From Limnomonas spitsbergensis (lineage: Eukaryota; Chlorophyta; Chlorophyceae; Chlamydomonadales), in the NCBI GenBank assembly GCA_037349105.1, contig JAYJMM010000081.1:992001-1056000 (forward strand): a DNA stretch of 64,000 nt, given 5' to 3'. This document shows, in pieces, positions 6,001-42,315 of this stretch. The notes beneath the pieces were generated by a model that saw only the letters and a list, made by a program, of their open reading frames with translations, was not told the origin of the DNA and made no database searches. How positions within the stretch are numbered: position 1 is the first letter of the stretch; every line of letters begins with the position of its first letter. Made by a program: the position numbers and the translations under genes.

Positions 6001-9000
6001 CCCTTGCTGTGTGGATCCCGTGATGATCCCATTTCCACACACTGGCAGCCTGAGCGCTCCTTTGCCCCCCCCCCTTGCTGTGTGGATCCCGTGATGATCC
6101 CATTTCCACACTTCGGCAGCCTGAGCGCTCCTTTGCCCCCCCCCCCCCTTGCTGTGTGGATCCCGTGATGATCCCATTTCCACACTTCGGCAGCCTGAGC
6201 GCTCCTTTGCCCCCCCCCCTTGCTGTGTGGATCCCGTGATGATCCCATTTCCACACTTCGGCAGCCTGAGCGCTCCTTTGCCCCCCCCCCTTGCAGTGTG
6301 GATCCCGTGATGATCCCATTTCCACACTTCGGCAGCCTGAGCGCTCCTTTGCCCCCCCCCCTTGCTGTGTGGATCCCGTGATGATCCCATTTCCACACTT
6401 CGGCAGCCTGAGCGCTCCTTTGCCCCCCCCCCCTTGCAGTGTGGATCCCGTGATGATCCCATTTCCACACACTGGCAGCCTGAGCGCTCCTTTGCCCCCC
6501 CCCCCTTGCTGTGTGGATCCCGTGATGATCCCATTTCCACACACTGGCAGCCTGAGCGCTCCTTTGCCCCCCCCCCCTTGCAGTGTGGATCCCGTGATGA
6601 TCCCATTTCCACACACTGGCAGCCTGAGCGCTCCTTTGCCCCCCCCCCTTGCTGTGTGGATCCCGTGATGATCCCATTTCCACACTTCGGCAGCCTGAGC
6701 GCTCCTTTGCCCCCCCCCCCTTGCTGTGTGGATCCCATGATGATCCCATTTCCACACACTGGCAGCCTGAGCGCTCCTTTGCCCCCCCCCCTTGCAGTGT
6801 GGATCCCGTGATGATCCCATTTCCACACACTGGCAGCCTGAGCGCTCCTTTGCCCCCCCCCCTTGCTGTGTGGATCCCGTGATGATCCCATTTCCACACT
6901 TCGGCAGCCTGAGCGCTCCTTTGCCCCCCCCCCTTGCTGTGTGGATCCCATGATGATCCCATTTCCACACTTCGGCAGCCTGAGCGCTCCTTTGCCCCCC
7001 CCCCTTGCTGTGTGGATCCCGTGATGATCCCATTTCCACACACTGGCAGCCTGAGCGCTCCTTTGCCCCCCCCCCTTGCAGTGTGGATCCCGTGATGATC
7101 CCATTTCCACACTTCGGCAGCCTGAGCGCTCCTTTGCCCCCCCCCCTTGCTGTGTGGATCCCGTGATGATCCCATTTCCACACACTGGCAGCCTGAGCGC
7201 TCCTTTGCCCCCCCCCCCGTGCTGTGTGGATCCCGTGATGATCCCATTTCCACACTTCGGCAGCCTGAGCGCTCCTTTGCCCCCCCCCCTTGCTGTGTGG
7301 ATCCCGTGATGATCCCATTTCCACACTTCGGCAGCCTGAGCGCTCCTTTACCCCCCCCCCCCCTTGCTGTGTGGATCCCGTGATGATCCCATTTCCACAC
7401 TTCGGCAGCCTGAGCGCTCCTTTGCCCCCCCCCCTTGCTGTGTGGATCCCGTGATGATCCCATTTCCACACACTGGCAGCCTGAGCGCTCCTTTGCCCCC
7501 CCCCCTTGCAGTGTGGATCCCGTGATGATCCCATTTCCACACTTCGGCAGCCTGAGCGCTCCTTTGCCCCCCCCCCTTGCTGTGTGGATCCCGTGATGAT
7601 CCCATTTCCACACTTCGGCAGCCTGAGCGCTCCTTTGCCCCCCCCCCTTGCAGTGTGGATCCCGTGATGATCCCATTTCCACACACTGGCAGCCTGAGCG
7701 CTCCTTTGCCCCCCCCCCTTGCTGTGTGGATCCCGTGATGATCCCATTTCCACACACTGGCAGCCTGAGCGCTCCTTTGCCCCCCCCCCTTGCAGTGTGG
7801 ATCCCGTGATGATCCCATTTCCACACACTGGCAGCCTGAGCGCTCCTTTGCCCCCCCCCCCTTGCTGTGTGGATCCCGTGATGATCCCATTTCCACACTT
7901 CGGCAGCCTGAGCGCTCCTTTGCCCCCCCCCCCTTGCTGTGTGGATCCCATGATGATCCCATTTCCACACACTGGCAGCCTGAGCGCTCCTTTGCCCCCC
8001 CCCCCTTGCAGTGTGGATCCCGTGATGATCCCATTTCCACACTTCGGCAGCCTGAGCGCTCCTTTGCCCCCCCCCCTTGCTGTGTGGATCCCGTGATGAT
8101 CCCATTTCCACACTTCGGCAGCCTGAGCGCTCCTTTGCCCCCCCCCCTTGCTGTGTGGATCCCGTGATGATCCCATTTCCACACACTGGCAGCCTGAGCG
8201 CTCCTTTGCCCCCCCCCCCTTGCTGTGTGGATCCCGTGATGATCCCATTTCCACACTTCGGCAGCCTGAGCGCTCCTTTGCCCCCCCCCCCTTGCTGTGT
8301 GGATCCCGTGATGATCCCATTTCCACACTTCGGCAGCCTGAGCGCTCCTTTACCCCCCCCCCCCTTGCTGTGTGGATCCCGTGATGATCCCATTTCCACA
8401 CTTCGGCAGCCTGAGCGCTCCTTTGCCCCCCCCCCTTGCTGTGTGGATCCCGTGATGATCCCATTTCCACACACTGGCAGCCTGAGCGCTCCTTTGCCCC
8501 CCCCCCTTGCAGTGTGGATCCCGTGATGATCCCATTTCCACACTTCGGCAGCCTGAGCGCTCCTTTGCCCCCCCTCCCCGTGCTGTGTGGATCCCGTGAT
8601 GATCCCATTTCCACACACTGGCAGCCTGAGCGCTCCTTTGCCCCCCCCCCCTTGCTGTGTGGATCCCGTGATGATCCCATTTCCACACTTCGGCAGCCTG
8701 AGCGCTCCTTTGCCCCCCCCCTTGCTGTGTGGATCCCGTGATGATCCCATTTCCACACTTCGGCAGCCTGAGCGCTCCTTTGCCCCCCCCCCTTGCTGTG
8801 TGGATCCCGTGATGATCCCATTTCCACACTTCGGCAGCCTGAGCGCTCCTTTGCCCCCCCCCCCCCTTGCTGTGTGGATCCCGTGATGATCCCATTTCCA
8901 CACTTCGGCAGCCTGAGCGCTCCTTTGCCCCCCCCCCCTTGCAGTGTGGATCCCGTGATGATCCCATTTCCACACTTCGGCAGCCTGAGCGCTCCTTTGC

Positions 9001-10990
9001 CCCCCCCCCTTGCTGTGTGGATCCCGTGATGATCCCATTTCCACACTTCGGCAGCCTGAGCGCTCCTTTACCCCCCCCCCCCCTTGCTGTGTGGATCCCG
9101 TGATGATCCCATTTCCACACTTCGGCAGCCTGAGCGCTCCTTTGCCCCCCCCCCCTTGCTGTGTGGATCCCGTGATGATCCCATTTCCACACTTCGGCAG
9201 CCTGAGCGCTCCTTTACCCCCCCCCCCCTTGCTGTGTGGATCCCGTGATGATCCCATTTCCACACTTCGGCAGCCTGAGCGCTCCTTTGCCCCCCCCCCT
9301 TGCTGTGTGGATCCCGTGATGATCCCATTTCCACACACTGGCAGCCTGAGCGCTCCTTTGCCCCCCCCCCTTGCAGTGTGGATCCCGTGATGATCCCATT
9401 TCCACACTTCGGCAGCCTGAGCGCTCCTTTGCCCCCCCCCCTTGCAGTGTGGATCCCGTGATGATCCCATTTCCACACACTGGCAGCCTGAGCGCTCCTT
9501 TGCCCCCCCCCCTTGCTGTGTGGATCCCGTGATGATCCCATTTCCACACACTGGCAGCCTGAGCGCTCCTTTGCCCCCCCCCCTTGCAGTGTGGATCCCG
9601 TGATGATCCCATTTCCACACACTGGCAGCCTGAGCGCTCCTTTGCCCCCCCCCCTTGCTGTGTGGATCCCGTGATGATCCCATTTCCACACTTCGGCAGC
9701 CTGAGCGCTCCTTTGCCCCCCCCCCTTGCTGTGTGGATCCCATGATGATCCCATTTCCACACACTGGCAGCCTGAGCGCTCCTTTGCCCCCCCCCCTTGC
9801 AGTGTGGATCCCGTGATGATCCCATTTCCACACTTCGGCAGCCTGAGCGCTCCTTTGCCCCCCCCCCTTGCTGTGTGGATCCCGTGATGATCCCATTTCC
9901 ACACTTCGGCAGCCTGAGCGCTCCTTTGCCCCCCCCCCTTGCTGTGTGGATCCCGTGATGATCCCATTTCCACACACTGGCAGCCTGAGCGCTCCTTTGC
10001 CCCCCCCCCTTGCAGTGTGGATCCCGTGATGATCCCATTTCCACACTTCGGCAGCCTGAGCGCTCCTTTGCCCCCCCCCCTTGCAGTGTGGATCCCGTGA
10101 TGATCCCATTTCCACACACTGGCAGCCTGAGCGCTCCTTTGCCCCCCCCCCTTGCTGTGTGGATCCCGTGATGATCCCATTTCCACACACTGGCAGCCTG
10201 AGCGCTCCTTTGCCCCCCCCCCTTGCAGTGTGGATCCCGTGATGATCCCATTTCCACACACTGGCAGCCTGAGCGCTCCTTTGCCCCCCCCCCTTGCTGT
10301 GTGGATCCCGTGATGATCCCATTTCCACACACTGGCAGCCTGAGCGCTCCTTTGCCCCCCCCCCTTGCTGTGTGGATCCCGTGATGATCCCATTTCCACA
10401 CACTGGCAGCCTGAGCGCTCCTTTGCCCCCCCCCCCTTGCTGTGTGGATCCCGTGATGATCCCATTTCCACACTTCGGCAGCCTGAGCGCTCCTTTGCCC
10501 CCCCCCCCTTGCAGTGTGGATCCCGTGATGATCCCATTTCCACACACTGGCAGCCTGAGCGCTCCTTTGCCCCCCCCCCCCTTGCTGTGTGGATCCCGTG
10601 ATGATCCCATTTCCACACTTCGGCAGCCTGAGCGCTCCTTTACACTCCCCCCCTTGCTGTGTGGATCCCGTGATGATCCCATTTCCACACTTCGGCAGCC
10701 TGAGCGCTCCTTTGCCCCCCCCCCTTGCTGTGTGGATCCCGTGATGATCCCATTTCCACACTTCGGCAGCCTGAGCGCTCCTTTACCCCCCCCCCCTTGC
10801 TGTGTGGATCCCGTGATGATCCCATTTCCACACACCGGCAGCCTGAGCGCTTCTTTGCCCCCCCCCCCCTTGCTGTGTGGATCCTGTGAGGATCCCATTT
10901 CCACACTTCGGCAGCCTGAGCGCTCCTTTGCCCCCCCCCCTTGCTGTGTGGATCCCGTGATGATCCCATTTCCACACTTCAGCAGCTCCA
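1..10990. repeat. ~71-72 bp satellite array (about 150 monomers)
   Basis: Head-to-tail monomers run from the window edge to about 10990. Each has the order CTGAGCGCTCCTTTG, a C-tract of about 8-14, TTGC[T/A]GTGTGGATCC, CGTGATGATCCCATTTCCAC, then either ACTTCGGCAGC or ACACTGGCAGC. A GGATCC (BamHI) site recurs in nearly every monomer. Variation is concentrated at a few diagnostic positions (T/A in TTGC[T/A]G, TTCGG/ACTGG, CCGTG/CCATG, CTTTG/CTTTA) and in the C-tract length. Because monomers are 71-73 bp long, very long frames stay open on the minus strand; they are repeat artefacts. The array continues beyond the left edge. Its right end is abrupt, at a last monomer joined to CAGCTCCAAAGCC. Confidence 0.97.
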
Positions 10991-11390
10991 AAGCCTCTCA
11001 GCCCCCCACCCCACCCCACCCTGCCGCATTACTCCTGTGCGGATTCCAAGGGCCTGCCATTGTTTGTTAGGGATCTCCTTGTAGGTAGACTGTAAAAAAG
11101 TGTGTCTAGAAAAAAAAGTGTGCCTAGAAAAATACTTCTACGCACCAAACCGTCTTTGGCTGACCGCTGGGCGTAACCTGGCGTCCACTGCTGGGCCAAT
11201 CTGGACCCAATCCTGACCGGGCCACTGCCAGGGGCCCAATCAGCAGTTGCTACTTGCTGTAGCAGACCCCCTCGACCTGATCCCTAAAAGCTCCGATCCC
11301 CTAACCCTCAACCTCTGATCCCTAAACCCCTGATGCCTTAACCCCTGATCCCTGAACCCTGAAAGGCCTGATGTGAAAGCCCTCCTCCCT
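10991..11390. other. Spacer between satellite and 23-bp array
   Basis: No gene is seen. The stretch holds a C-rich junction, two similar A-rich words (GTGTGTCTAGAAAAAAAA and GTGTGCCTAGAAAAA, about 11100-11130), a reverse-oriented remnant of the ~180-bp dispersed element near 11150-11260, and the first degenerate CCCTAAA-like words from about 11280. Confidence 0.5.
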
Positions 11391-12152
11391 TAACCCTGAG
11401 AGGCCTGATCCATAAACCCTGAGAGTCCTGATCCATAAACCCTAAGAGGCCTGATCCATAAACCCTGAGAGGCCTGATCCATAAACCCTGAGAGGCCTGA
11501 TCCATAGGGGGGAGGAGATTTTTTTATTGATTTAAAAAATTAAAAGGGCCTTTGCTTAACCCTGAGAGGCCTGATCCATAAGCCCTGAGAGGCCTGATCC
11601 ATAAACCCTGAGAGGCCTGATCCATAAGCCCTGAGAGGCCTGATCCATAAGCCCTGAGAGGCCTGATCCATAAACCCTGAGAGGCCTGATCCATAAGCCC
11701 TGAGAGGCCTGATCCATAAACCCTGAGAGGCCTGATCCATAAACCCTGAGAGGCCTGATCCATAAGCCCTGAGAGGCCTGATCCATAAACCCTGAGAGGC
11801 CTGATCCATAAGCCCTGAGAGGCCTGATCCATAAACCCTGAGAGGCCTGATCCATAAGCCCTGAGAGGCCTGATCCATAAGCCCTGAGAGGCCTGATCCA
11901 TAAACCCTAAGAGGCCTGATCCATAAACCCTGAGAGGCCTGATCCATAAACCCTGAGAGGCCTGATCCATAAGCCCTGAGAGGCCTGATCCATAAACCCT
12001 GAGAGGCCTGATCCATAAGCCCTGAGAGGCCTGATCCATAAGCCCTGAGAGGCCTGATCCATAAACCCTAAGAGGCCTGATCCATAAACCCTGAGAGGCC
12101 TGATCCATAAACCCTGAGAGGCCTGATCCATAAGCCCTGAGAGGCCTGATAA
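11391..12152. repeat. 23-bp tandem array, telomere-like derivative
   Basis: About 30 copies of a 23-bp unit (CCCTGAGAGGCCTGATCCAT plus AAA) with alternating AAACCCT and AGCCCT forms. Unit ends read ATAAACCCTGAG/ATAAACCCTAAG, so the array probably grew from a drifted CCCTAAA telomere-type word. It is interrupted once at about 11508-11565 by AT-rich DNA. Minus-strand frames of 23-residue periodicity here (3 x 23 bp) are repeat artefacts. Confidence 0.9.
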
Positions 12153-12385
12153 GGAACTCTTACATCCCTCGACCCTAAACCCTGACTCCACAAACCTTTA
12201 AACCTGCCCCCCTGGTTCCTTAACCCTGAAAGTCCTGACCACTTAACCCTGAGAGTCCCGATCCACAAACCCTGGAGGCCCAGATCAGGAGCTCTTACAT
12301 CCCTCGACCCTGACCCCACAAAACCATAACCCTGACCCCCTGGTCCCTAAACCCTGAAAGTCCTGATTTCTGAACCCTGAGCCCT
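12148..12385. repeat. Two-copy ~120-135 bp direct repeat
   Basis: Two diverged copies begin GATAAGGAACTCTTACATCC (about 12148) and GATCAGGAGCTCTTACATCC (about 12283). Both run through CTCGACCCT, CCACAAA, CCCCCTGGTNCCT and ACCCTGAAAGTCCTGA. The filler is CCCTAAA/CCCTGAA-like, the same material found in the introns of the neighbouring gene. Confidence 0.7.
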
Positions 12386-12437
12386 GATCCTGTTTGCCCT
12401 ATCTTCTTCACCTTCAACCTCCCCCCCTTTCTTGCAG

Positions 12438-12790
12438 TGCTTGCGTCCACCTTCCTCCTCTATTCGGTTGGGCTGGTTGCGGGAACCATCCCCTGGGCAG
12501 ACGCAATGGCCTGTACCCTGCACCCTCACCCCCCTCACCCCACCTATCCTGGGTGCAGTGCTTGCGTCCACCTTCCTCCTCTACTCGGTTGGGCTGGGTG
12601 CGGGAGCCATCCCCTGGGCAGACGCAATGGCCTGCACCCTGCACCCTCAGCCCCCTCACCCCACCCATCCTGGTGGCAGTGCTTGCGTCCACCTTCCTCC
12701 TCTACTGGGTTGGGCTGGGTGCGGGAGCCATCCCCTGGGCAGACGCAATGGCCTGCACCCTGCACCCTAACACCCCTCACTCCTCTTAAA
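12438..12790 (+). repeat. Three truncated copies of RUS exon A with acceptor
   Basis: Copies start at 12438, 12559 and 12680 (period about 121 bp), each directly after a CAG acceptor. Each repeats roughly the first 70 nt of the real exon at 12879 (TGCTTGCGTCCACCTTCCTC...), then diverges into a common C-rich tail (GCAGACGCAATGGCCTG...CACCCC). They read the start of the exon ([12 protein letters not shown]) but lack the remaining exon and a matching donor, so I treat them as non-coding pseudo-exons. Confidence 0.85.
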
Positions 12791-12878
12791 ACTAACATGT
12801 AAAGGGTTTGGGGATTAGGGTTTTGGGCCTGGGCCCGCGCAATGAACCGTCAGCCCTAACCTCAAACCCTGATTGCAG

Positions 12879-15800
12879 TGCTTGCGTCCACCTTTCTGCT
12901 CTACTCGGTCGGGTTGGGTGCGGGGGCCATCCCCTCTGCTGGCGCAATGAACTGGATTCTGAAGGACGGCATCGGGCAGTTGGGCACCCTGGTGTTTGCG
13001 AAGGTCATCGCTCATAACTTTGACGTCCACTCCAAATCCTGGTGAGAAGCAGCTCTCTGAGATTGGGATGGAGGTTGAAGTTTGCATTGGAGGGGCTGAG
13101 TGTTTGAGGTTTCCTTGGATCCTCTTGATGTATCCTCTACCCTTTACCGCACCGCACCGTTTTGGGATGGTCATCGCTCACAACTTGGACGTCCATTCCA
13201 AGTCTTTGTGAGGAGGAGCCCAGGGATGCAGGGTTACCCAGGAAGGCCGTTTGGGCCCAAATCCTCTACCGTTTACCGCACTGCACCGTACCGTATCGGG
13301 AAACTTTGATCGGGAAACTTTGATACCGATATATTAGTTTCCAACAGGGGTGCGCAGACCCTAGCCTGTTTTATCGTAACAAAATCGATGTAATTATGGG
13401 TCATTGCTCACAACTTCGATGTCCGTTCCAATTATAATCCTATAACCCTAAACGCTGAACCCCTAAACCCTAAACCATAAACCCTAAACCCTGAACCCAT
13501 CCACCTTGGTCAGGCACTTTCTGTCCATGATAAACCCTCAACATTGAACCCTTAACCCTGAGCATTGAACCCTGCACCCTAAACCTATCCACCTTGGTCA
13601 GGTCCTTTTTATCTATGGTGCACCCTCAACCCAAACCATGGACACTGAACACTTGACCCAAAAACCCTAAACCTCGGTCCGGTACTTTCTGTCCAGGGTG
13701 AACCCAAAACCCAGAATCCTGAACCCTAAACCCTAAACCCTGAACTACAAACCCTAAACACGAATCCTAAACCACGAACCCATCCACCTTGATCAGGTAC
13801 TTTCTATCGAGTTGAACCCTGAACCCTGAACCCTGAACTCGTCCTCCTCGGTCAGGTACTTTCTGTCCATGATGAACCCTGAACCCTAAACTTTAAACCC
13901 ACCTGGGTCAGGTACTTTCTGTCCATGGTGCAGCTCAAGCTGGCGACGGCTCTGGAAATGCTGACGATTGTGTTCCCGGCCTACTTCCTGCCCCTTGGCT
14001 CAGCTGCTTTCAGCCTCAAGGTAAAGAATTCATGCGAGTGGACCCTGAAGTCCTGAACCCTATTACCAGTATCTTTGGCAGGGCCATGGGAACCATATGA
14101 CCGATACCTTTGGCGGGCAGTTGGGCCCATGGGGACCATACTTTGACCGGCCTACTTCCTGCCACCCGGCTCGGCTGCTTTCACACTGAAGATAAAGGAA
14201 TAATAATAATAATAATAATAATAATTACTATCCTTATGGAAATACCGTATTGTTGCTCCAATTCGTTTTTTGCCACAGCATTTAAGAGGGCACGAATCAC
14301 TGTTTGACTTAATGTTGCGTCACTAGAAGGGCGAACAAATCATGATGTCCAAACCCGTCACTAATATTAAAGAAAAAACGAATTCAAAGTAAAAATACGG
14401 CAGTAATAATATTAATATATTGATGGCACATTGGTAGGCCGATCAAGGTTTGGTCCCAGTTGGCCCAGTAATGGCCGCCCGGCGGCCCCCTGAAGGTGCT
14501 CTGGCACGCACTGAAATAATCACTGCCAGCCGCTCCGCACGCAGCATCCTCAATCTCTCCCTTTCATCCGGGGGCAATACAGGGCTTGCCTTCATACCCT
14601 GAAACCTGTCTCCCTTTGCGCAAGGGCTTGCTTTCATGGCTCCACGCGCAGCGTCTTCAATCTCTCCTTCTCACATGAAATAGCTTGTGTTCACGCCTGA
14701 GTTCTTTTCTTAACTTTCTGGAGCAACCCTGAACCCCCCCTGCTGAACCCTGAACCCTAAACCCTACGTGTGCAGGGGCTTGCTTTTATGGCCAGCGGCT
14801 CCACACGCAGCGTCTTCAACCTCTCCTTCTCACGAGGGAGCAACATTGCGGACATCACGGCCAAGTCAACCAGTCAGTGGATCTTCACCAGCCTGCTGGG
14901 AACCGCCCTCGGTAAGCGGAATGCTTAGTTTCATATGTATATTTGTGATGATGAAAAGTTCTCGTGCAGCCGCCGCCCTGTTTGTCTGTCTAGCTTCTAA
15001 GCCGTCTAGACTTTGTACATGATTACGGCCACGACTGCTATGTGCCCATCGCCTGTGGGGCCATCACCTGCAGAGGCGCAGGGCATTGCCTGATCTCTAC
15101 CCTGGTGTGGGCTTCATCAGCCTGGTGGGCCAGAGCATCTCGCTGGTCGTGGATATATTGCCGAGTGTACCCGTAGATTTGCTTTGCCTGCCCTCATAGT
15201 TAATGATGCTTGGGTTGAGGGATCTTTAACCATATTAATCATCGATTGTCTACGCCAGTTTTCAGTCAGAACTTCAGAGTTTTGCCCTGAGGTAATTTAC
15301 CCTGAGGGCAGTATTTAAATAAATGCTGCTTTTTCATACCCGTGGGAAGGCAGATCAAATCTACGGTACCCATAATGCTCGTTTCCTCCACAGGTGTGGG
15401 CTTGAGCAGCCTGGTGGGCCACATCGTCCCCCACTCCCGCTGGCCTTGGACGTTTAGCTGAATCGAATTGCAGTAGAAAGGTGTGCTAAGAGAAGTGACT
15501 GCGCCCCCCTCCCCAGGTGTGGGCTGTAGTAGCTTGGTGGGCCAGAGCGTCCCGCTGGCCCTGGACGTTTAGCTGAATTGAACTGCTGTAGAAAGGTGTG
15601 CTAAGAATAGCGACTGCGCCCCCTCCCCAGGTGTGGGCTGTAGTAGCTTGGTGGGCCAGAGCGTCCCGCTGGCTGTGCTCTGTTACTCTGCTCTTACCGC
15701 CATCACTCTTTTGAGCTCGTACCAGACGGTCAAGAGCATCCCGCTGGCCACACTTAACTCAACGAGGCTGCAGGTGGGAGAAAAGGGTGGGGATCCACTA

Positions 15801-18800
15801 GATCCAAGAGATCGAGTTGATCCACTAGATCCAAGAGATCCAGTTGGTTCAATAGATCCAGTATATGAGTATATCCAATGGATGCAATGCATGTAATCAG
15901 TTTGTGTGTTCAATCTGGATGGTCCAAAGCATCCCACTGGCCACGCTTAACAAGGCTGTAGGTGTGAGGAAGGGGTGGGGATCCCAAAGATCCTAGATCC
16001 AACAAACCGCCCCCCCCCCCCTTCCCATCGGCAGCTCCTTGCAGACATGTATCTCAGCAGTGTGCGGGAGGTTGCGGATGCCAAGGCGCTGCGCCTGCGG
16101 CAGGGCGTGGAGTTAGACTTGACCCCCTTGTTTTGCTTGCTGTATAAGAACCCTCCACCCCCTACCCTCCTGCAGCTCCTTGCAGACATGTTCCTCATCA
16201 GTGTGCGGGAGGCAGCGGACGCCAAGGCGCTGCGACTGCGGCAGGCCGTGGACTTAGGCCTCAGCCACTTTTTTCTTCTTATGTTATGTAGGAATACCCC
16301 TCCCCTCCCCTCCCTCTTCTGACCCTAACACCTCCCCCCACCCACCCCCTCCTGGCAGCTCCTTGCAGATATGTTCCTCAGCAGTGTTCGGGAGGCGGCG
16401 GACGCCAAGGCGCTGCGACTGCGGCAGGCCGTGGATGCGAGCAACCGTGAGGATGGGCGGATGGACGGGCTGGCTGTGAAGGCAGGGTGGGACGAGGGCG
16501 AGATGCCTGCTGCAGAGGATGCCTCTACTATGGAGTATGACCGCAGCTTTGCCGAGGAGCTGGCGAGCAAGGTGGGGGGGTGGGAGGGGGGAGAGGGTCA
16601 GGTGGGGTGTGGGGGAGGGGGCAGGAGCGGGTGAGCAAGGAGGGGGAGGAGGGAGCGGGTGGGACCAGGGCGAGATGCCCGCTGCAGAGGATGCCTCTAC
16701 AATGGAGTATGACTGCAGCTTTGCCGAGGAGCGAACAAGGTGGGGTGGGTGGGAGAAAGGATGGGCATGTGGGGGTTGAGGGAGGGGACAGGAGCTGGCA
16801 AAGAAGGCTCGGAGTGTGGGAGGGGGGAGGGGCAGGTGGGTTGTGAGGGAGGATGATGGCCTTACCCTCCTGCCCTCTTATCTAAGCTTCCCTCGTTGGA
16901 TCCTGAATCCCGTCAAGCTCACAGAAGATGAACAGTCCCCCAACACATGTTTCCCGTGTCCTCTCTTCATCGGATCCTTTTATCCCTCTCATGGCTCCGT
17001 GTTCATGTCCTGTCATTCCATGAGATGAGGACTCACTGTCATGTTGCCAGTCGATGACCTGCCCGACCCCCTTGCCGCCATTTCCTCTCATCAGATCCCA
17101 ACTCCTGTCATGCTGGCAGTGGATGACACGCCCCCTCCTCTGAACTCCCCGATAGCGATCAAGTGCAGTCAGGGAAAGTTGAAAACAAAATATACAGTCA
17201 AAATTGCTTGAAGTTGCTGAGAGGGGTGATTTTCCTTCACAGGTGCCTCTCTGACGCTTATAATTTTTAGGATTCATCTTCATCAGTCCTTATATCAGAT
17301 CCCGACTCCTGTCAAGCTGGCAGCGGATGATCCCCCCCCATTCCCGTGTACTCCCTTACTGACATCCCCTGTACCTCTATCGGTGCCTCTCTCACACTTA
17401 TGTTCCATATCCTGTCCCACTATCAGATCCCGACTCCTGTCAAGCTAGCAGCAGATGACCCCCCCTTCCCCTTCTTCTTCAGCGACGACAGGATCATGAA
17501 TCCGCGCATCTTTGTGGGCACCTCGATCAATGACCTGGTCAAGGGTGAGGCTGGGAATGGGACCGTCCCTCTTGGCACATGAGTAAGTATTAACAGTGTG
17601 TGCGTGTATGTAGGGAAACAGATATACGGGTCTAGCCAGACCTCCATCAAGGACCTAGTCAAGGGTGAGGCTGGGGTTGGTGTAACGTTCTTACCATTTA
17701 GACCAAAGGATCCAGATGTGGGTGACGTCCTATGTAGATTATCAGGATCGTTACATATGTGACCATCTCTTTAGGCACATGAAATCTCAACCAATCTTGG
17801 CTTGGGAGGGAACTCAGGGGAACATCTCTCTTTGCCCCTGACGGATTGTGCCAATCTCAAAATCTGGCACGGTATGCTCTCCTGCCTTGACACCCTTGAT
17901 CCTGTGCGTCATAACGTACCCCCCCCCCCCCCCGTCTGTCCTGCTCTCTCTCCGTGTCACCCTCTGGCCTCTGTCCTGGGTAACAGAGCATACCCCCGTC
18001 TGTCCTCGCTCCCCTCTCTTCCTTGAAATTTTTGTTACCGGGTATCATAAGGTGATGCAATTATACCCTCGCTGCCCTCCCCTTCTTGGCCCTCTCTGTC
18101 CTCGCCGACCTCTCCTTCTTGTCCCTCTCTGTCCTTGCTGCCCTCCACTTCTTGTCCCTCTCTGTCCTTGCTGCCCTCCCCTTCTTGACCCTCTCTGTCC
18201 ATGTTAACATAACGTAACCCTCTCTATCCTTGCTGCCCTCCCCTTCTTGGCCCTCTCTGTCCTTGCTGCCCTCCCCTTCTTGGCCCTCTCTGTCCTTGCT
18301 GCCCTTCCCTTCTTGACCCTCTCTGTCCTTGCTGCCCTCCCCTTCTTGACCCTCTCTGTCCTTGCTGACCTCCCCTTCTTGACCCTCTCTGTCCTTGCTG
18401 ACCTCCCCTTCTTGACCCTCTCTGTCCTCGCTGACCTCCCCTTCTTGACCCTCTCTGTCCTTGCTGACCTCCCCTTCTTGACCCTCTCTGTCCTCGCTGA
18501 CCTCCCCTTCTTGACCCTCTCTGTCCATGTTAACATAACGTAACCCTCTCTGTCCTTGCTGCCTTCCCTTGCCTTGGCCCTCTCTGCCCCAGGAAAGATT
18601 ATGTACCCCCCACCCTCTGTCCTCGCTGACCTCCCTTGCCTTGACTTCACCGTGCTGTGTGCGCCGCCCCCTCAGATTCTCCGCAGCTGCTCATTGTACT
18701 GCTGGCCACATTTAAGTACAGCCGGTACATGGTCACGCCCTCTATCGGCTCGGTCCATGTGATCCTGCACCAGGTAAATTGTCTTGGGCGGTCTTCACAT

Positions 18801-21800
18801 GGACACCAGTTTCACAACATTTGCTGGGATGTGCGGTGCACATTATGTACATGATCTTGCACCAGGTGATTTATCTTGGGGGGCCTTAAGAGGACAAATG
18901 CTGTTCCCAATGTTGGGGGCGGGGCTTGAGAAGGACACCGGTTTCCCAACATTTGATGGGCTGTGCTGCGCGCTATGTGCCAGGGTTATTCCCCTTGTTC
19001 CTTAAGGCCTGCTCCTGCTCCTGCTCTTGCTTCTGCTTATGTTCACCTGTGTCCTTTTCTTCCTATTCCTGCTGCTCCCACTTAACCTTCTCCTCCTCCT
19101 GCTCCTCCTCCTGCACCCTTATATCCTGCTCCTTCTCCCTGGCCTCCTGCTCCTTCTCCTGCTCCCTTACGTCCTGCTCCTGTCGATCTGTGTCCTTTTC
19201 CTCCTACTCATGCCGTTCCCTCACAACCTGTGTTCCTTCTTGCCGCCAGGTTGCCGACCCAAGGGACATATGCCAGGCGTACCTTCAGGTGGGGGGGAAT
19301 AGGGTTTAGGGTGTCCCCTAGGGATATATGCCAGGCGTACCTTCAGGTGGAGGGGAATAGGGTTTAGGGTTTCCCCTAGGGATATATGCCAGGTGTACCT
19401 TCAGGTGGGGGGGGAATAGGGTTTAGGGTGTCCCCTAGGGATATATGCCAGGCGTACCTTCAGGTTCAGGGGAATAGGGTTTAGGGTGTCCCCTAGGGAT
19501 ATATGCCAGGTGTACCTTCAGGTGGGGGGGAATAGGGTTTAGGGTAAACCCTAGGGATATATGCCAGGCGTACCTTCAGGTGGGGGGGAATAGGGTTTAG
19601 GGTGTCCCCTAGGGATATATACCAGGTGTACCTTCAGGCATTGGGGGACAGGGTGAAGTCTATAGGGCTTCCTCGAGGGATATATGCCAGGCGTACTTCC
19701 AGGTGGGGGAGGGGGGAATAGGGTCAATGGTTTAGAGTTTCCCCAAGGCACATATGCCAGGCTTACTTCAGGTGGGGGAGGGGGGAATAGGGTCAATGGT
19801 TTAGAGTTTCCCCAAGGCACATATGACAGGCTTACTTCAGGCGGGAGGGAATTACGCAGGGGCTCCTAATTCGTTCTCTGAAACACATGGGACATATGCC
19901 AGGGACAAGGGACATATGCTAGGGACATGGGACATATGCCAGGGACAAGGGACATATGCCAGGGACAAGGGACATATGCCAGGGACAAAGGACATATGCC
20001 AGGGACAAAGGACATATGCTGTGTAGTTGTAGGCGTCAGGGGGAGCATGGGGGATGTGTGCTTTCAAGTAGGTGATGTACTGGGTAATGCTCCTGCCCTT
20101 GCTACTCATCATGAGGCCTGACGCCAATGTTTGCTCTAGTACGCACCAGGTATCCTTCGGGAGGCCACTGGGCGGCCACAAGTGGAGCAGTGGGGACTGC
20201 GGCCGTAGGCCGTGCAAGATGGGGTCCATGCCTACGGCCTTCAGCCTGCCCAAGCATATCAGACCATGCTGCACCAGGCCTCATGGCCGTAGGCCGTGAT
20301 GTAGCTGAAATCTATCTGGGACATAGCTGAAATCATTTCTGACCGATGCAAGTATTCTAAATGTTGGTCCATGCCTCTCGCGGGCGACGCTGCTGATGTT
20401 GCGCATTCTTCGCGGGCAACGCTATTGAGGCGGCGCACTGACCAATGCAAGGAATACAAATGCTGCTTTATGGCTCCTTGCCACTCGCAGGCAACGCTGC
20501 TGAGGCGGCATTTTAGCTCTGACCAATGCAAGTAATGTAAATGTTGGTCCATGGCTCCTTGCCACTCGCAGGCAACACTATTGAGGCGGCGCATTATCTC
20601 TGATCGATGCAAGTACCTCCAGAGCGGCCCAAACGGCCTGACTGACCTGCGCATTGCCCTGCAGGTATGGACGAGGGGAGAAATGTATCCATAACACACA
20701 CCCACACACAGCAGCATATTTTGAACCTCATTAGGAAATACCTTCAGAGCGGCCCAAACGGTGACCCACCTGCGTATTGCCCTACAGGTACGCACTTCAC
20801 CACTGCAGTACTAGAGAAGAAAAAATGACCCATTGACCCCATGCAAAGCACACTCACACACGCACCATGTTGTGAACTTCATTAGCAAATGCCTCCCAGG
20901 CACTACGACCAGACAGCATCCCCAGTCGCTTGCATAACACATGCAATCACCATCAGAAATCCATTCATGAATACTGCTCCGTCAGTCGCGTGCAGAATAC
21001 GCAAGACCTTGACTTAGGGAAAGCTGTGAGGCTTCAGCCTGACTGCTGTAATTTTTGATGAATGTTATTTAACAGTCCAGCAGAGCATCACATTTTAGTT
21101 CAGAGCATTCACGTGTTAGCTAAGCATTGAGGCTGTAAGCTGACTTTTGGAAGCTGAAATCTGTCTGTAGAAAAGCTGGGAGGCTGAAACCTGACTTTCA
21201 AAAGCTGAGCCCTTGAGATTTTGAAGCTGAAGCCTGTGAATCCGAAACCAATACCGCCACTCCCGTCACCTGTTAGGCAGCGTTTGTTTCTTCCTGACTC
21301 AGCTACATCTCAGCTACACCCGGCCTCCCGCCAGCGGTCCCAGGTGTGGCTTGCCATGGTCTGCTTGGGCCGCTGGCGGAAGGCCGGTGAATGTTTGGTC
21401 CCAACGGGGTCTCTGACGGCCGCGAGGCAGCCTGCCGATGGTGTCCACGTAGCCGGCATAATAAATACTGCTGCTAGGACTCGCTACTGGCACAGCCACG
21501 ACTGCCTCAACCCATCGCACATTACCGTCCCAGACCTTCCCTGACCAGTGTTTCTGATAGTGGGCACCTGCCCACCCATAGGGGGCCGCCGGGCCGCCAC
21601 CACTGGGCCAATGGGGACAAAATTTTGACCGACCTATGGCCGGTGGCCCGAGCAGCAGAATTTGCTGTACCAGGCCCTCACGGCTGTAGGCCGTGATGTA
21701 GCTGAATTGTAGCTGAAGCGCGTAAAAGGAAACACTGTCCCTGACCCTGAGCCACCCGTATGACTCCTGTTCCTAGGACTCATTACTGGCAGCGGAGCGC

Positions 21801-21896
21801 CTCACCACCCCCTTCATGTCGGCGCTGGAGGCCTGCGGCTGGCGCACAGACAAAGTGGTGGTCGAGGCGGTCAAGAGACGCGCCAGGTGGTCGTGA
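12879..21896 (+). CDS. Root UVB Sensitive (RUS/DUF647) family protein, 5'-incomplete
   Basis: Ten exons joined by consistent phases: 12879-13041, 13912-14020, 14776-14911, 15631-15773, 16359-16571, 17427-17544, 18676-18773, 19250-19288, 20623-20664, 21777-21896 (TGA). Together they give about 393 residues. Recognisable DUF647 blocks are [79 protein letters not shown], and the C-terminal half ending [15 protein letters not shown]. Several hydrophobic stretches fit the plastid or membrane-associated plant and algal family, where RUS1/RUS2 act in UV-B and vitamin-B6-linked signalling; the function here is inference. The expected first 100-150 residues of the domain are absent: the first exon enters in mid-codon from an acceptor, and upstream there is only repeat DNA. 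The 5' exons are therefore beyond the window, or the gene is truncated. A residue block in exon E ([12 protein letters not shown]...ELASK) looks lineage-specific. Nearly all exons have truncated copies nearby, listed separately. Confidence 0.82.
13168..13430 (+). repeat. Donor-side copies of RUS exon A
   Basis: Two degraded copies of the 3' end of exon A lie downstream of the real one. 13168-13215 reads GGTCATCGCTCACAACTTGG then ACGTCCATTCCAAGTC and TTTGTGAGG; the second is at about 13397-13430 (GGTCATTGCTCACAACTTCG). They match AAGGTCATCGCTCATAACTT of the exon. The first keeps a GTGAGG donor-like end. Confidence 0.75.
13505..13880 (+). repeat. Five acceptor-side copies of RUS exon B start
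   Basis: Five copies of about 25 nt, at ~13508-13530, 13596-13620, 13674-13701, 13787-13814 and 13847-13875, repeat the intron end and first bases of exon B (GGTCAGGTACTTTCTGTCCA). The true acceptor is at 13911/13912, where the reading continues into [13 protein letters not shown]. Copies are separated by CCCTAAA/CCCTGAA filler. Most keep TCAGG at the splice position. They carry only about 20 nt of exon. Confidence 0.85.
14147..14200 (+). repeat. Donor-side copy of RUS exon B
   Basis: GGCCTACTTCCTGCCACCCG...GCTGCTTTCACACTGAAGAT repeats the exon end at 13979-14022 (GGCCTACTTCCTGCCCCTTG...CTCAAGGTAAAG). The donor GT has become AT, so this copy should not splice. Confidence 0.75.
14435..14525 (+). 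repeat. Copy of ~180-bp dispersed element (fragment)
   Basis: Contains GATCAAGGTTTGGTCCCAGT, TGGCCCAGTAATGGCCGCCC, and an end GGCACGCACTGAAATAATCA. This is the 3' half of the element seen best at 40320-40505. It sits in the RUS intron between exons B and C. Confidence 0.7.
14528..14685 (+). repeat. Acceptor-side copies of RUS exon C
   Basis: At least two degraded copies precede exon C (14776). One is around 14528-14602 (CCGCTCCGCACGCAGCATCC, then AGGGCTTGCCTTCAT). The other is at 14620-14682 (AAGGGCTTGCTTTCATGGCT, then CACGCGCAGCGTCTTCAATC). The real exon begins GGGCTTGCTTTTATGGCCAG and reads [18 protein letters not shown]. Confidence 0.75.
15105..15570 (+). repeat. Three pseudo-copies of RUS exon D
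   Basis: Copies at about 15110-15150, 15394-15440 and 15518-15565 repeat GTGTGGGCT..AGCNNCNTGGTGGGCCA. The second and third follow good acceptors (CACAG, CCCCAG). Both then run into GGACGTTTAGCTGAAT, which puts a stop in the exon frame. The intact copy is 15631-15773, reading [13 protein letters not shown] and [20 protein letters not shown]. Confidence 0.8.
15915..15975 (+). repeat. Donor-side copy of RUS exon D
   Basis: GGTCCAAAGCATCCCACTGG...CACGCTTAACAAGGCTGTAG then GTGTGAGG repeats the end of exon D (GGTCAAGAGCATCCCGCTGG...AGGCTGCAGGTGGGAG). Confidence 0.75.
16033..16260 (+). repeat. Two acceptor-side copies of RUS exon E
   Basis: Copies at about 16033-16112 and 16174-16255 each follow a polypyrimidine tract and CAG. 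Each repeats CTCCTTGCAGACATG...GTGCGGGAGG...GCCAAGGCGCTGCG, then diverges after GGCGTGGA/GCCGTGGA. The real exon starts at 16359 and continues into [12 protein letters not shown]. Three consecutive acceptors of similar strength are thus present. Confidence 0.85.
16640..16830 (+). repeat. Donor-side copies of RUS exon E
   Basis: 16665-16745 repeats GAGATGCC.GCTGCAGAGGAT, ACAATGGAGTATGACTGCAG and the donor-like AAGGTGGGG. A shorter trace at about 16793-16825 has GGAGCTGGCAAAGAAGG. The real exon ends at 16571. Confidence 0.75.
16895..17345 (+). repeat. Three acceptor-side copies of RUS exon F
   Basis: Copies near 16900-16945, 17092-17140 and 17296-17340 repeat ATCAGATCCCGACTCCTGTC...GCTGGCAG.GGATGA. 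The real exon begins at 17427 and reads [20 protein letters not shown]. The third copy is nearly identical to the real exon for about 45 nt, then ends in CCCCCCCATTCCCGTG. Confidence 0.8.
17630..17690 (+). repeat. Donor-side copy of RUS exon F
   Basis: CCTCCATCAAGGACCTAGTC then AAGGGTGAGGCTGGGGTTGG repeats the end of exon F (CCTCGATCAATGACCTGGTC, AAGGGTGAGGCTGGGAATGG at 17521-17560), keeping the donor. Confidence 0.8.
18061..18560. repeat. 33-bp intronic minisatellite
   Basis: About 14 units of a 33-bp pyrimidine-rich repeat (CTTGCTGACCTCCCCTTCTT, GACCCTCTCTGTC), with two longer units that include CATGTTAACATAACGTAACC. It lies in the RUS intron between exons F and G. In-frame 11-residue repeats on both strands are artefacts. 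Confidence 0.9.
18780..18990 (+). repeat. Donor-side copies of RUS exon G
   Basis: The real exon end GATCCTGCACCAGGTAAATT with following TGTCTTGGGCGGTCTTCACA (18761-18800) is repeated at 18851-18900 as GATCTTGCACCAGGTGATTT ATCTTGGGGGGCC. The next intron segment (GGACACCAGTTTCACAACAT) recurs at about 18932-18960. The unit is roughly 80-130 bp. Confidence 0.75.
19010..19235. repeat. CTCCTGCT-rich intronic tract
   Basis: Low-complexity pyrimidine-rich DNA with recurring TCCTGCTCCT/TCCTCCTGCTCC and GTGTCCTTTTCTTCCTA words. It lies immediately upstream of exon H and may serve as its polypyrimidine tract. Confidence 0.7.
19290..19850 (+). repeat. ~60-bp array of RUS exon H end plus donor
   Basis: About nine units of roughly 60 bp repeat GGGATATATGCCAGG[C/T]GTACCTTCAGGTGG, then GGGGAATAGGGTTTAGGGTG and TCCCCTA. 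The source is the real exon H end (GGGACATATGCCAGGCGTAC CTTCAG, exon end 19288). Most units keep the CAG/GTGGG donor, so up to about nine decoy donors follow the real one. The linker contains TTTAGGG-like sequence. The last units drift toward CTTACTTCAGGTGGG. Confidence 0.9.
19888..20015. repeat. 20-bp tandem repeat derived from the exon H unit
   Basis: About seven copies of GGGACA.GGGACATATGCCA. The GGACATATGCCA word is the same as in exon H, so the array appears to be a secondary expansion of it. Confidence 0.85.
20110..20335 (-). repeat. Copy of ~180-bp dispersed element (reverse)
   Basis: Contains CCACTGGGCGGCCAC, TGCACCAGGCCTCATGGCCG and TAGGCCGTGATGTAGCTGAA, the reverse of the 40320-40505 copy, with an extra GCCGTAGGCC-like duplication inside. 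Confidence 0.65.
20335..20613. repeat. ~90-bp intronic tandem repeat
   Basis: Three to four diverged units carry TCTGACCAATGCAAGTAATG, TAAATGTTGGTCCATGGCTC, CTTGCCACTCGCAGGCAACG and TATTGAGGCGGCGCA. The last unit ends directly at the acceptor region of exon I (CTCTGATCGATGCAAG). Confidence 0.8.
20735..20800 (+). repeat. Pseudo-copy of RUS exon I
   Basis: TACCTTCAGAGCGGCCCAAA then CGGTGACCCACCTGCG, GTATTGCCCTACAGGTACG repeats exon I (20614-20670) but is two bases shorter inside, so it is out of frame. Confidence 0.8.
21285..21450 (+). repeat. Copy of ~180-bp dispersed element
   Basis: Forward copy: CAGCTACACCCGGCCTCCCG, CAGGTGTGGCTTGCCATGGT, CTGCTTGGGCCGCTGG, GAATGTTTGGTCCCAACGGG. It resembles the subtype at 37680-37860. 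Confidence 0.65.
21555..21735 (-). repeat. Copy of ~180-bp dispersed element (reverse)
   Basis: Nearly full-length reverse copy with GGGGGCCGCCGGGCCGCC, CTGGGCCAATGGGGAC, TTTTGACCGACCTATGGCCG and TGTAGGCCGTGATGTAGCTG. It ends just before the last RUS exon. Confidence 0.75.
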
Positions 21897-22480
21897 AGAC
21901 AGCTGTTAGCTATGAGCTATGTCTCAATCTGTTATTCAACCGCCTCGAAGTGTTCCAACTGCCTCCAATTCATCTAACTGCCTTCAACTGATCCAACTGC
22001 TGGTGGTCAAGGCGGTCAAGAGACAGGCCAGATGTTCGTGATGCCAGCTGCAAGCTACGTCTCCTTCCGTTATTCAACCGCCTCCACGGCTGATCCAACC
22101 GCCTCCAACTGATCCAACTGCCGGTGGTCCTGGCGGTCAAGAGACAGGCTGTTAGCTATGCCTCAATCTGTTATTCAACCGCCTCCAACAGTCCAACTGT
22201 TCCAACCGCCTCAAATTGATCCAACCGCCGGTGGTTGGTCAAGAGACGGGCCAGATGGTGGTGATGCAAGCTGTAAGCTATGCCTCCATCTGTCTTTCAA
22301 GTTCCAACTGCCTCCAACCTCTGATTCAACCGCCAGTGGTCCAGGTGGGGAAGAGACGCGCCAGATGGTCGTGATGCTTAGCCACGAGCTGTCTCTCCAG
22401 ATCTCATTCAACCGCCTCAAACCCTTAACCGCTCCTAGCTCTCGACTCCACCGCCTACAGCTTTGATCCAACGTCCTTTT
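21860..22480 (+). repeat. Tandem copies of the RUS stop-codon region
   Basis: The end of the last exon (GTGGTCGAGGCGGTCAAGAG...GTGGTCGTGA, stop at 21894-21896) and the following CAGCTGTTAGCTATGAGCTA, ATCTGTTATTCAACCGCCTC recur about four more times, near 22000-22090, 22125-22205, 22230-22330 and 22335-22480. Each keeps GGTCAAGAGAC.GGCCAGATG or a close form. This probably forms or surrounds the 3' UTR. Confidence 0.8.
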
Positions 22481-24577
22481 GATTTTGCTGCCGGCATGGC
22501 GATGCCCCTTCGAGCATGATACCGCAGACGTTATTTTCTATGGACTACCGTATGTACACATATAAACATATTATTAGCTGGCGGCCCCAGTGGGAGGATG
22601 CCAGGCTAGGTGGCCGAGTTTTCTTCCCTCTTATCTTATGCTATAGCAGAGTTAATGATGCTACACCTCTGGGCCCTGTTTGAATAAAGCTCGGCCCGAC
22701 AGCTATAGCAGAGTGGATACCGTGTTTATTTCAGCGCACACCACGTACATATGGCTTGTGGATAGCATATCAGGGTTTTGCAGCGCCAGCACACCGCTAT
22801 GGCCGCGATGCACCTGAATTGTCACTGACGAGCCCTGCAAGTAAGTGTGGTGGATATTGTAGTGAGGATTGTGCCTGGGCATCCCCGCAAATGGCTTCGG
22901 TTGGCCTGCCAAAGCCAGGCGCGGTCACAGCATGGAAAGAATGCAGGCTGCATTTGAGACAGCGCAGCCCTCACTTGCAGGTACTGCCTGTATGCAGCAG
23001 AGAGGGAGGGAAGCTGAAACAGCTGCAAATTCGCTGTCTGAAGGCTTGTGACTTACTGAACAAATTAAGCTGCCTGTTTTTTGATGTAGTGTACGCCACT
23101 AGACAGTTGAAGGCGGAGTCGGGGTCCGTCTCTCACTGGCTGCAGGTTACCTATGAATAGAGAGGACATTAAATTCGCACCTGAGGGTGCAGCTTTGAGA
23201 TCTAGTGTTCATTTAGTGTATACCCCCCCCCCCCCTGCCATACTATACCCTTGGGAGGGGCGCCAGACTGTGGCCATAACTGGCCAATTGTACCAAGGCT
23301 TGACCGTCCGACGGCCAGTGGACTTAGCAGCAGGGCTTGTTGCACCATGACCCTCGGCCGTGGGCCATGATGTGCCTAAATTGAAGCTGTAAATTTAAAA
23401 TCCCTCCTAGGTTAGGCCGCGTTGTCGGCTTCCGGGCTTTTGAAGTCCCCAAGCGTACTCACGAAGTAGTGCCGGCAGCAGGCAGGCACACACGGGAATA
23501 TATATATCCCTTGATCTTTACTCCTGATTCTCGAGGGCCTGTGCTCGAGAGTTTTACACTTTCATGGGCGCAACATTTACCCCGTCCGGACAGGGTAAAC
23601 ACTTTACGAGGTACTCGCTCGCGGCGTGCGTGGTGCGATGAGCGCGTCGCAGAGCCGGGCTGCAAATCCAGCGATAGCACCTACCCACCCGGATAGCACC
23701 CGATAGCAGGGTGGATGCTGATGTACGTGGTCGATGTTGAAAAACGACGAAGCACTTCGGTGGTCCGCAGCGTTTTAATTGAGCTGGGCAAAAGAGTAAA
23801 ACCCTCGCCTCGTCCGAGCTGGTTCCCGCCTCGAGCGCAGCGCGCACATTTCGCGAGCGAATTGCGACGTGTGTGGCGCGGGCCTCGACCCAACGAAAAC
23901 GGCGTTGGAAAACTTAGCTTCACGAGAATCGCGTTGAAGTATAGGGGCGAACTGTCGCAAATCTTCTATGCCACAACACGCTGACGAGCATCTGTGGTCT
24001 GCATCAATTGAGAGGGTGACTTCCGGGTAACCCCTCGCCCCGTCCGAGTGGTGACCACCTCCGTCGAGCGCAGCAGTTGCGTAAACTCTCGTTACGCCTG
24101 TGCATACCGGTAAATGTGATGGTCGATCCCAGACATACCCAACTTGATCACCTGACTTGACGGATGTCCGCATGCACTTATCAGCGGCTCCACTGCGATC
24201 TTCGCAGATTTGTGTTGATGCCTCGTATCGCCGCAAGCTAGCAAACTCGTTACACTTGCTTTCCATTACAAACGGGGAGCCAGCGTCCTACGTCAGCACC
24301 TTACATCCCCCCAGCGAAACACCGCTTCTGCCGCCCCAGCCAATCAGCGCCCACCGAGAACAGGCAGTGCGGTCCCGGTAAGTCCCTGGGTTCTGCGATC
24401 TAGTTACAGGCAGCAGCAGATGAGCGACACAAAAAGTCAGCGGGGACAACTCCTAACTAACCCGCCATGCCCTACTCGATCGCCCCTTGCACGGCAGGCA
24501 CAGGCCACGCCCGTTTCGTCTGGCATCATCAAGCAAGACCGCGATAGACGCACCTTCCAACCAAGCACAGTTGGCAG
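22481..24577. other. Intergenic region upstream of GLOX1
   Basis: No gene recognised. Contents: a reverse copy of the ~60-bp dispersed tail (about 22653-22700), a reverse copy of the ~180-bp element (about 23235-23395), a C-tract at 23222-23236, and a GC-rich segment at 23560-24080 with a diverged direct repeat (CCCTCGCCTCGTCCGAGCTG near 23803 and CCCCTCGCCCCGTCCGAGTG near 24031, each followed by CGAGCGCAGC). The GLOX1 promoter should lie in the last few hundred bases; I see no clear TATA box. Confidence 0.5.
23235..23395 (-). repeat. Copy of ~180-bp dispersed element (reverse, diverged)
   Basis: Shows GGCCAATTGTACCAAGGCTT, GACCGTCCGACGGCCAGTGG, TTGCACCATGACCCTCGGCC and GTGGGCCATGATGTGCCTAA, the reverse of the 40320-40505 copy with substitutions. 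Confidence 0.6.

Positions 24578-42315
<17,738 letters not shown>

Follow-up and report, generated by a model that had tools for sequence, protein, structure and literature searches.

Truncated Exon Edges Repeated Outward from a ROOT UVB SENSITIVE Gene of Limnomonas spitsbergensis: A Probable Case of Introns Lengthened from Their Ends by Tandem Duplication

The RUS Locus

We analyzed a window of 64,000 nucleotides (C81:992001-1056000) from the green alga Limnomonas spitsbergensis, whose genome assembly comprises 260,226,709 bases in 124 contigs. The window carries a ROOT UVB SENSITIVE gene (RUS, PF04884; Pfam UVB_sens_prot match, E 3.9e-44), and most exons of this gene are accompanied in the neighboring noncoding DNA by truncated copies of their own edges, which we call echoes. 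The best homologue of the encoded protein is from Chlamydomonas eustigma, with 75% identity across 100% of the query, in agreement with a likely chlamydomonadalean host. Exons A to J occupy positions 12879-21896 of the window (Table 1), and an eleventh exon, N, lies 308-390 bases ahead of the window start.

All ten exons A-J recur in a RUS paralog on contig C93, at 74-87% nucleotide identity per exon, and the ten introns N-A to I-J are common to both genes. The paralog has AG at 10/10 acceptors and GT at 9/9 donors of exons A-J, and because these dinucleotides are kept at homologous positions they support our exon model; the donor of exon N is likewise kept. The start of exon I in our initial model, 20623, was dropped after comparison with the homologue moved the acceptor to the position given in Table 1. 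A 71-bp satellite of about 154 copies fills positions 1-10986 of the window and, since exon N precedes the window start, this 11-kb array sits inside RUS intron N-A, which measures only 416 bases in the paralog. Rfam and tRNA scans of the window gave no match.

Exon-Edge Echoes

Each whole exon served as a probe, and a match counted as an echo if it outscored all of the 60 or 100 dinucleotide shuffles made of that intron and its score was above 26. Around exons A-J of the C81 gene the scan found 44 truncated exon copies, with two runs differing by one copy at exon B and one at exon H. At least one echo accompanies 19/22 RUS exons (N and A-J in both genes): 9/11 in C81, the exceptions being N and G, and 10/11 in C93, where only J lacks one. 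Exon-derived letters make up 1341/7786 intron bases in introns A-B to I-J of C81 and 2356/12574 in the same introns of C93. Tandem Repeats Finder (TRF) resolved head-to-tail units of 121 bp at exon A, 58 and 69 bp at H, and 81 bp at I; not all echoes sit in such an array. The nearest acceptor-side echo of exon D (15517-15559) is 100% identical to the exon over 43 nt, has a homologous intron flank, and has its border 114 bp ahead of the true one.

An earlier note, based on the letters of this DNA, had listed echoes at most exon edges. Its counts recur in our scan on the acceptor side (A 3, C 2, D 3, E 2, F 3) and on the donor side (A 2, B 1, D 1, E 1, F 1, I 1, nine at H that reach the donor, and four at the stop region). 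The five copies that it placed before exon B stand as multiple copies of that edge but not as a number, as three echoes pass in one run and two in the other; besides the true site, the edge has four matches with at most three mismatches, where 0.02 are expected. Exon G has no significant echo in the scan, and the donor echo listed for it comes down to a nonsignificant match of 15 nt at 18853-18867. The three acceptor-side copies of exon I were absent from that list.

The echoes point in one direction. In C81, 16/18 upstream copies reach the 5' edge of their exon and 0/18 the 3' edge; downstream, 16/26 reach the 3' edge and 0/26 the 5' edge. The paralog adds 42 copies, none of which touches the wrong edge. 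Pooled over both genes, the expected edge is reached by 35/42 upstream and 32/44 downstream copies, and the opposite edge by 0/42 and 0/44; the remaining 19/86 are inner fragments that have probably decayed. No wrong-edge or whole-exon copy occurs among the 86 copies of the two genes. Among 390 copies of 141 random intron segments, used as a control, 68 were wrong-edge and 43 whole. The claim that acceptors lie systematically upstream and donors downstream, beyond chance, is thus upheld (0/44 wrong-edge copies in C81, 0/42 in C93).

This geometry follows from tandem duplication of a segment that straddles an exon border. The product is an intron tail and exon head followed by the same intron tail and exon head with the rest of the exon, so that the complete exon is the second copy and the spare lies upstream; the donor side is the mirror image. 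Echoes are likely found outward only because a spare copy of intron tail and exon head placed elsewhere would break the exon; duplicates within the exon disrupt the reading frame and would disappear. In simulated random tandem duplication, where a rule rejected duplicates lying within an exon or comprising all of one, 5/434 copies were wrong-edge or whole. Border-straddling duplication together with purifying selection forces the outward geometry and a border-copying process is not needed; the earlier view that no ordinary process yields it is not supported, given the simulation and the flank homology described below.

If echoes arose in this manner, the duplicated unit should include intron, borders other than splice sites should be echoed too, and wrong-way or whole copies should be rare. 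In C93, the two exon E echoes closest to the exon each combine 78 nt of exon with a 41-nt pyrimidine-rich stretch from the end of the intron, and these units continue as far as the true exon. With a test anchored at the exon border, which avoids alignments that run into the master exon, homologous intron flanks were found in 24/49 echoes overall and 21/44 in RUS (p <= 0.05 against flanks of other exons). The stop-codon echoes of C81 have flank homology in 4/4 cases (p 0.021). As this border is echoed without a splice site, splicing-dependent copying was rejected.

The motif CCCTAAA, which we take to be the plant-type telomere unit, occurs 32 times in the window where 7.1 are expected, and 21/32 occurrences lie inside the RUS gene (11282-14761 and 19305-19602). 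Telomere repair was considered as a source of echoes but not adopted.

Age Structure of the Arrays

In 15/15 multi-copy arrays, similarity to the exon is higher in the nearest echo than in the farthest; paralog arrays may share ancestry, so these trials are not fully independent of one another. Within arrays, 103 pairs were concordant with this order, 31 discordant, and 9 tied (permutation p 1e-4). The gradient was computed on copies with at least 25 nt of exon, at edges with two copies or more, and the nearest echo is not in every array the most exon-like copy. The longest series on an acceptor side is at exon E of C93, with 10 echoes; there, as among the eight donor-side echoes of exon C in that gene, the nearest are more exon-like than the farthest.

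Copy number differs widely between the paralogs: exon C has eight donor echoes in C93 and none in C81, and exon H has 15 donor-side copies in C81 and one in C93. Introns differ in length between the paralogs in step with their echo numbers (rho 0.83, p 0.005, nine introns). Echoes had been proposed earlier as a possible route of intron growth, a suggestion that this correlation and the gradient support.

Exon E offers a view of how an array may renew itself. Its breakpoint is nearly equal in both paralogs, at nt 77/78 on the acceptor side and at 126-128 on the donor side in 5/6 copies. The C81 echoes match their own exon at 88-95% identity, more closely than exon E of C81 matches that of C93 (85%). 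From these sequence comparisons we read the exon E echo as an old unit that would have been re-seeded from the living exon, with convergent breakpoints or gene conversion as alternatives.

Echoes Outside the RUS Pair

At other RUS-family loci (contigs C19, C112, C34, and C122), copies were found at 8/16 anchors, two of them overlapping, and 20/20 copies pointed outward. The window also holds two glyoxal/galactose-oxidase-like genes, neighbors with matching exons, at 24576-35200 and 46015-58868, with five copies at 4/14 exons. Dynein sequences, with anchors from 8 of 16 places chosen among 30 matches, had echoes at 2/13 anchors. One acceptor-side echo, of exon 4, is common to both oxidase genes and more decayed in the second (Table 1). 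Its score of 90 compares with at most 38 among 200 shuffles, and nine echo-specific changes are shared, which means that echoes can outlive gene duplication.

We also used codon usage alone to choose coding-like segments (110-400 nt) from six contig stretches, with RUS-family exons included and the C93 RUS exons excluded, and compared them with 150 random noncoding segments. Scored by the half of the segment copied, 68/71 copies of coding-like segments pointed outward, against 211/334 for noncoding ones (p 2e-9). The nearest copy was more like the anchor in 11 cases and less in 3, with 2 ties. An earlier anchor run gave 40 copies, all outward; the 13 copies from anchors longer than 320 nt say nothing about geometry, since those anchors were searched at the expected edge alone. 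The outward geometry extends beyond the RUS gene, with varying density in a small sample.

At its end, the second oxidase gene carries a 228-bp repeat of about 14.6 copies in an open frame (55365-58700); its match to CBM53 falls short of the curated cut-off. Within the oxidase introns, long tandem arrays lie away from exon edges at 26445-27284, 28802-29285, 30687-32516, and 51793-53765 (units of 7, 20, 49, and 6 bp). A reverse transcriptase fragment (RVT_1, E 2.6e-14) at 61876-62256 on the minus strand is likely a retroelement remnant.

Table 1. Master exons and echoes in the window (positions relative to its first base).
Feature	Position	Strand	Evidence
RUS exon A (master)	12879-13041	+	exon model, Pfam, C93 paralog
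RUS exon B (master)	13912-14020	+	exon model, C93 paralog
RUS exon C (master)	14776-14911	+	exon model, C93 paralog
RUS exon D (master)	15631-15773	+	exon model, C93 paralog
RUS exon E (master)	16359-16571	+	exon model, C93 paralog
RUS exon F (master)	17427-17544	+	exon model, C93 paralog
RUS exon G (master)	18676-18773	+	exon model, C93 paralog
RUS exon H (master)	19250-19288	+	exon model, C93 paralog
RUS exon I (master)	20572-20664	+	acceptor from homologue; C93 paralog
RUS exon J (terminal, ends in TGA)	21777-21896	+	exon model, homologue, C93 paralog
3 acceptor-side echoes of exon A (first 71 nt), 121-bp tandem unit	12438-12750	+	TRF, scan
2 donor-side echoes of exon A (13161-13204, 13399-13431)	13161-13431	+	scan
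Acceptor-side echoes of exon B (4 edge matches besides true site)	13508-13874	+	scan, edge match
Donor-side echo of exon B	14147-14191	+	scan
2 acceptor-side echoes of exon C	14525-14674	+	scan
3 acceptor-side echoes of exon D	15105-15559	+	scan
Donor-side echo of exon D	15918-15951	+	scan
2 acceptor-side echoes of exon E (first 77 nt)	16035-16252	+	scan
Donor-side echo of exon E, homology extending into intron	16657-16732	+	scan, flank alignment
3 acceptor-side echoes of exon F	16900-17345	+	scan
Donor-side echo of exon F	17640-17664	+	scan
9 donor-side echoes of exon H (last ~31 nt), 58-bp then 69-bp tandem unit	19316-19840	+	TRF, scan
6 short exon H fragments in 20-bp tandem array	19883-20003	+	TRF, scan (5 in other run)
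3 acceptor-side copies of exon I, 2 reaching edge	20332-20534	+	scan
Donor-side echo of exon I	20736-20787	+	scan
4 echoes of stop-codon region, homology continuing into 3' flank, without splice site	22001-22374	+	scan, flank test
Acceptor-side echo of exon 4, first glyoxal-oxidase-like gene (exon 29661-29942)	29489-29577	+	scan, flank test
Same exon-4 echo, more decayed, second glyoxal-oxidase-like gene (exon 49249-49530)	48903-48991	+	scan, comparison

Discussion

We consider it probable that the echoes are tandem duplicates of short border-straddling segments, seen only outward since other placements break the exon, and that introns of this gene lengthen from their ends in consequence. A segment spanning an exon border would initially be duplicated, apparently at random, by replication slippage or unequal exchange, and the duplicate would survive only where the exon stays whole, leaving the spare copy in the intron. 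The exon edge could then serve as a terminal minisatellite unit protected from decay by selection and, because it persists, may keep seeding adjoining copies. Older copies would be displaced deeper into the intron and decay there, the intron gaining length from its ends.

Several results weigh against this account or limit its reach. In 25/49 cases the echo flank shows no significant homology, and the terminal exon J of C93 has no echo in the scan. Exon G of C81 has none either, and echoes are far fewer at the exons of the oxidase genes and at dynein anchors than at RUS exons. The correlation between intron length and echo number is partly built in, because echoes occupy space, and no result here separates template switching from slippage or unequal exchange. 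Simulations also depart from the data. Uniform duplication without slippage gives nearest-to-farthest ratios of 3:8 to 11:4 in seven settings and 28:23 when saturated, not 15:0, and it always yields fewer copies at exons than within introns, an order that the RUS genes reverse. Saturated uniform settings match the exon counts but leave 98-99% of intron segments with copies, against 54% observed. Adding homology-driven slippage regains the gradient in some of fifteen settings (12:2 and 7:1 among nine, 16:2 among six) and not in others (2:3, 9:11), and in 0/15 does the exon fraction exceed the intron fraction; simulations with homology rates far too high collapsed the arrays and were discarded. 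Only three edge-biased settings, with 50-80% of events at edges, bring the exon fraction above the intron fraction.

Such a bias might arise if duplication starts were favored at exon borders, for example, through transcription- or splicing-coupled breaks or R-loops. In keeping with this, local copies accompany the RUS exons more often than random intron segments of the two genes (19/22 versus 76/141, p 0.0045), as in the edge-biased simulations. On the six contig stretches, however, there is no excess at coding-like over noncoding segments (28/58 versus 64/150, p 0.53), so the enrichment at exon borders on which the earlier note had made its claim depend stands for the RUS pair and not more widely. 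The stop-codon border is echoed as well, the edge-biased settings give gradients of 33:12, 40:18, and 31:18, weaker than the observed 15:0, and the intron control could have been lowered by foreign insertions. Given the missing excess and this possible dilution, we regard border targeting as unlikely; since the excess in the RUS genes does not recur at the codon-usage anchors, a bias toward edges is not put forward as a firm claim. A broader version of the duplication account, in which exon edges are the growth plates of introns in this lineage, is offered only tentatively: the edge would be an immortal seed for homology-driven slippage, with copies born at the border and age-graded arrays setting intron length genome-wide, possibly aided by border-biased duplication.

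The remaining explanations concern what the copies do and how else they could come about. Arrays might be retained since competing splice sites regulate splicing, and among border-reaching echoes AG is kept in 24/31 acceptor copies and GT in 22/27 donor copies. This is close to the retention of about 0.77 expected from the identity of the exon part (0.88 squared), and the ungapped flank identity of 0.66 is as expected if both flanks drift. Acceptor units hold at least 37 nt between echo exon and next border (35/35 spacings), but donor spacings are never short either (at least 26 nt in 32/32), so the acceptor spacing is not special. With the RUS paralog as outgroup and related copies counted separately, changes on the echo side are spread over codon positions 1, 2, and 3 as 100, 117, and 135 of about 1370 sites each (p 0.07), against 11, 9, and 107 on the side of the master exon (p 7e-33). 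The near-even spread, and splice dinucleotides that decay like the rest, mean that echoes do not look like maintained decoys, and the disparity in copy number between C81 and C93 also argues against a regulatory role. Decoy function, raised in the earlier note, is therefore very improbable, and to judge from these sequence comparisons, the splice sites in echoes are likely by-products. An RNA-mediated origin, by reverse splicing or insertion of reverse-transcribed fragments near the gene, would account for copies that hold exon ends and a splice site, but we give it hardly any credence: about half of the copies (24/49) include intron flank, several arrays run head to tail beside their own exon, and the stop border is echoed too. 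We give equally little credence to a misassembly caused by long tandem repeats. Tandem arrays abound in the region and a few copies are identical to the exon, but identities range from 71% to 100%, mostly below 95%, and echoes recur in the paralog and on other contigs.

Long introns are often attributed to transposons or unspecified drift. Here, one source of added intron DNA can be read as the adjoining exon, copied serially with similarity falling with distance. If the pattern were genome-wide, intron growth could be dated copy by copy. The arrays also pose a question for splicing, as the true acceptor of exon E in C93 lies behind up to ten near-copies and is presumably still chosen.

Relation to Known Systems

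In a known model of intron gain, tandem duplication creates an intron (PMC4974935). The likeness lies in tandem duplicates that span or adjoin splice sites of a gene while its protein stays unchanged. The difference is that here no new intron position appears, existing introns lengthen, and copies accumulate in series. Duplication of exon and splice signals with an unaltered mRNA, as in that model, may be represented by the 24/49 copies that have both border and intron flank in the genomic DNA. Core-Reinhardtinia algae have conspicuously long introns, and in the portion of PMC8226300 at hand the authors leave the driving mechanism open. They resemble our alga as green algae, and exon-edge duplication is not named in that portion.

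A literature search limited to open-licence papers, accessible in part, found no description of exon-edge arrays. Tandem exon duplication, the basis of mutually exclusive exons, resembles them as local duplication of exon sequence within a gene. A whole exon, however, is duplicated in 0/86 copies here, and echoes lack one splice site and coding constraint. Introner-like elements place one element sequence, common to many introns, in many genes. Against such an origin, each array copies the edge of its own neighboring exon; the filler was not searched genome-wide. In form the arrays resemble minisatellites and other intronic tandem repeats, with which they share head-to-tail units (58, 69, 81, and 121 bp) and a copy number that differs between gene copies. 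Unlike these, the RUS arrays have one coding end unit under purifying selection and are thus anchored, pointing away from the exon.

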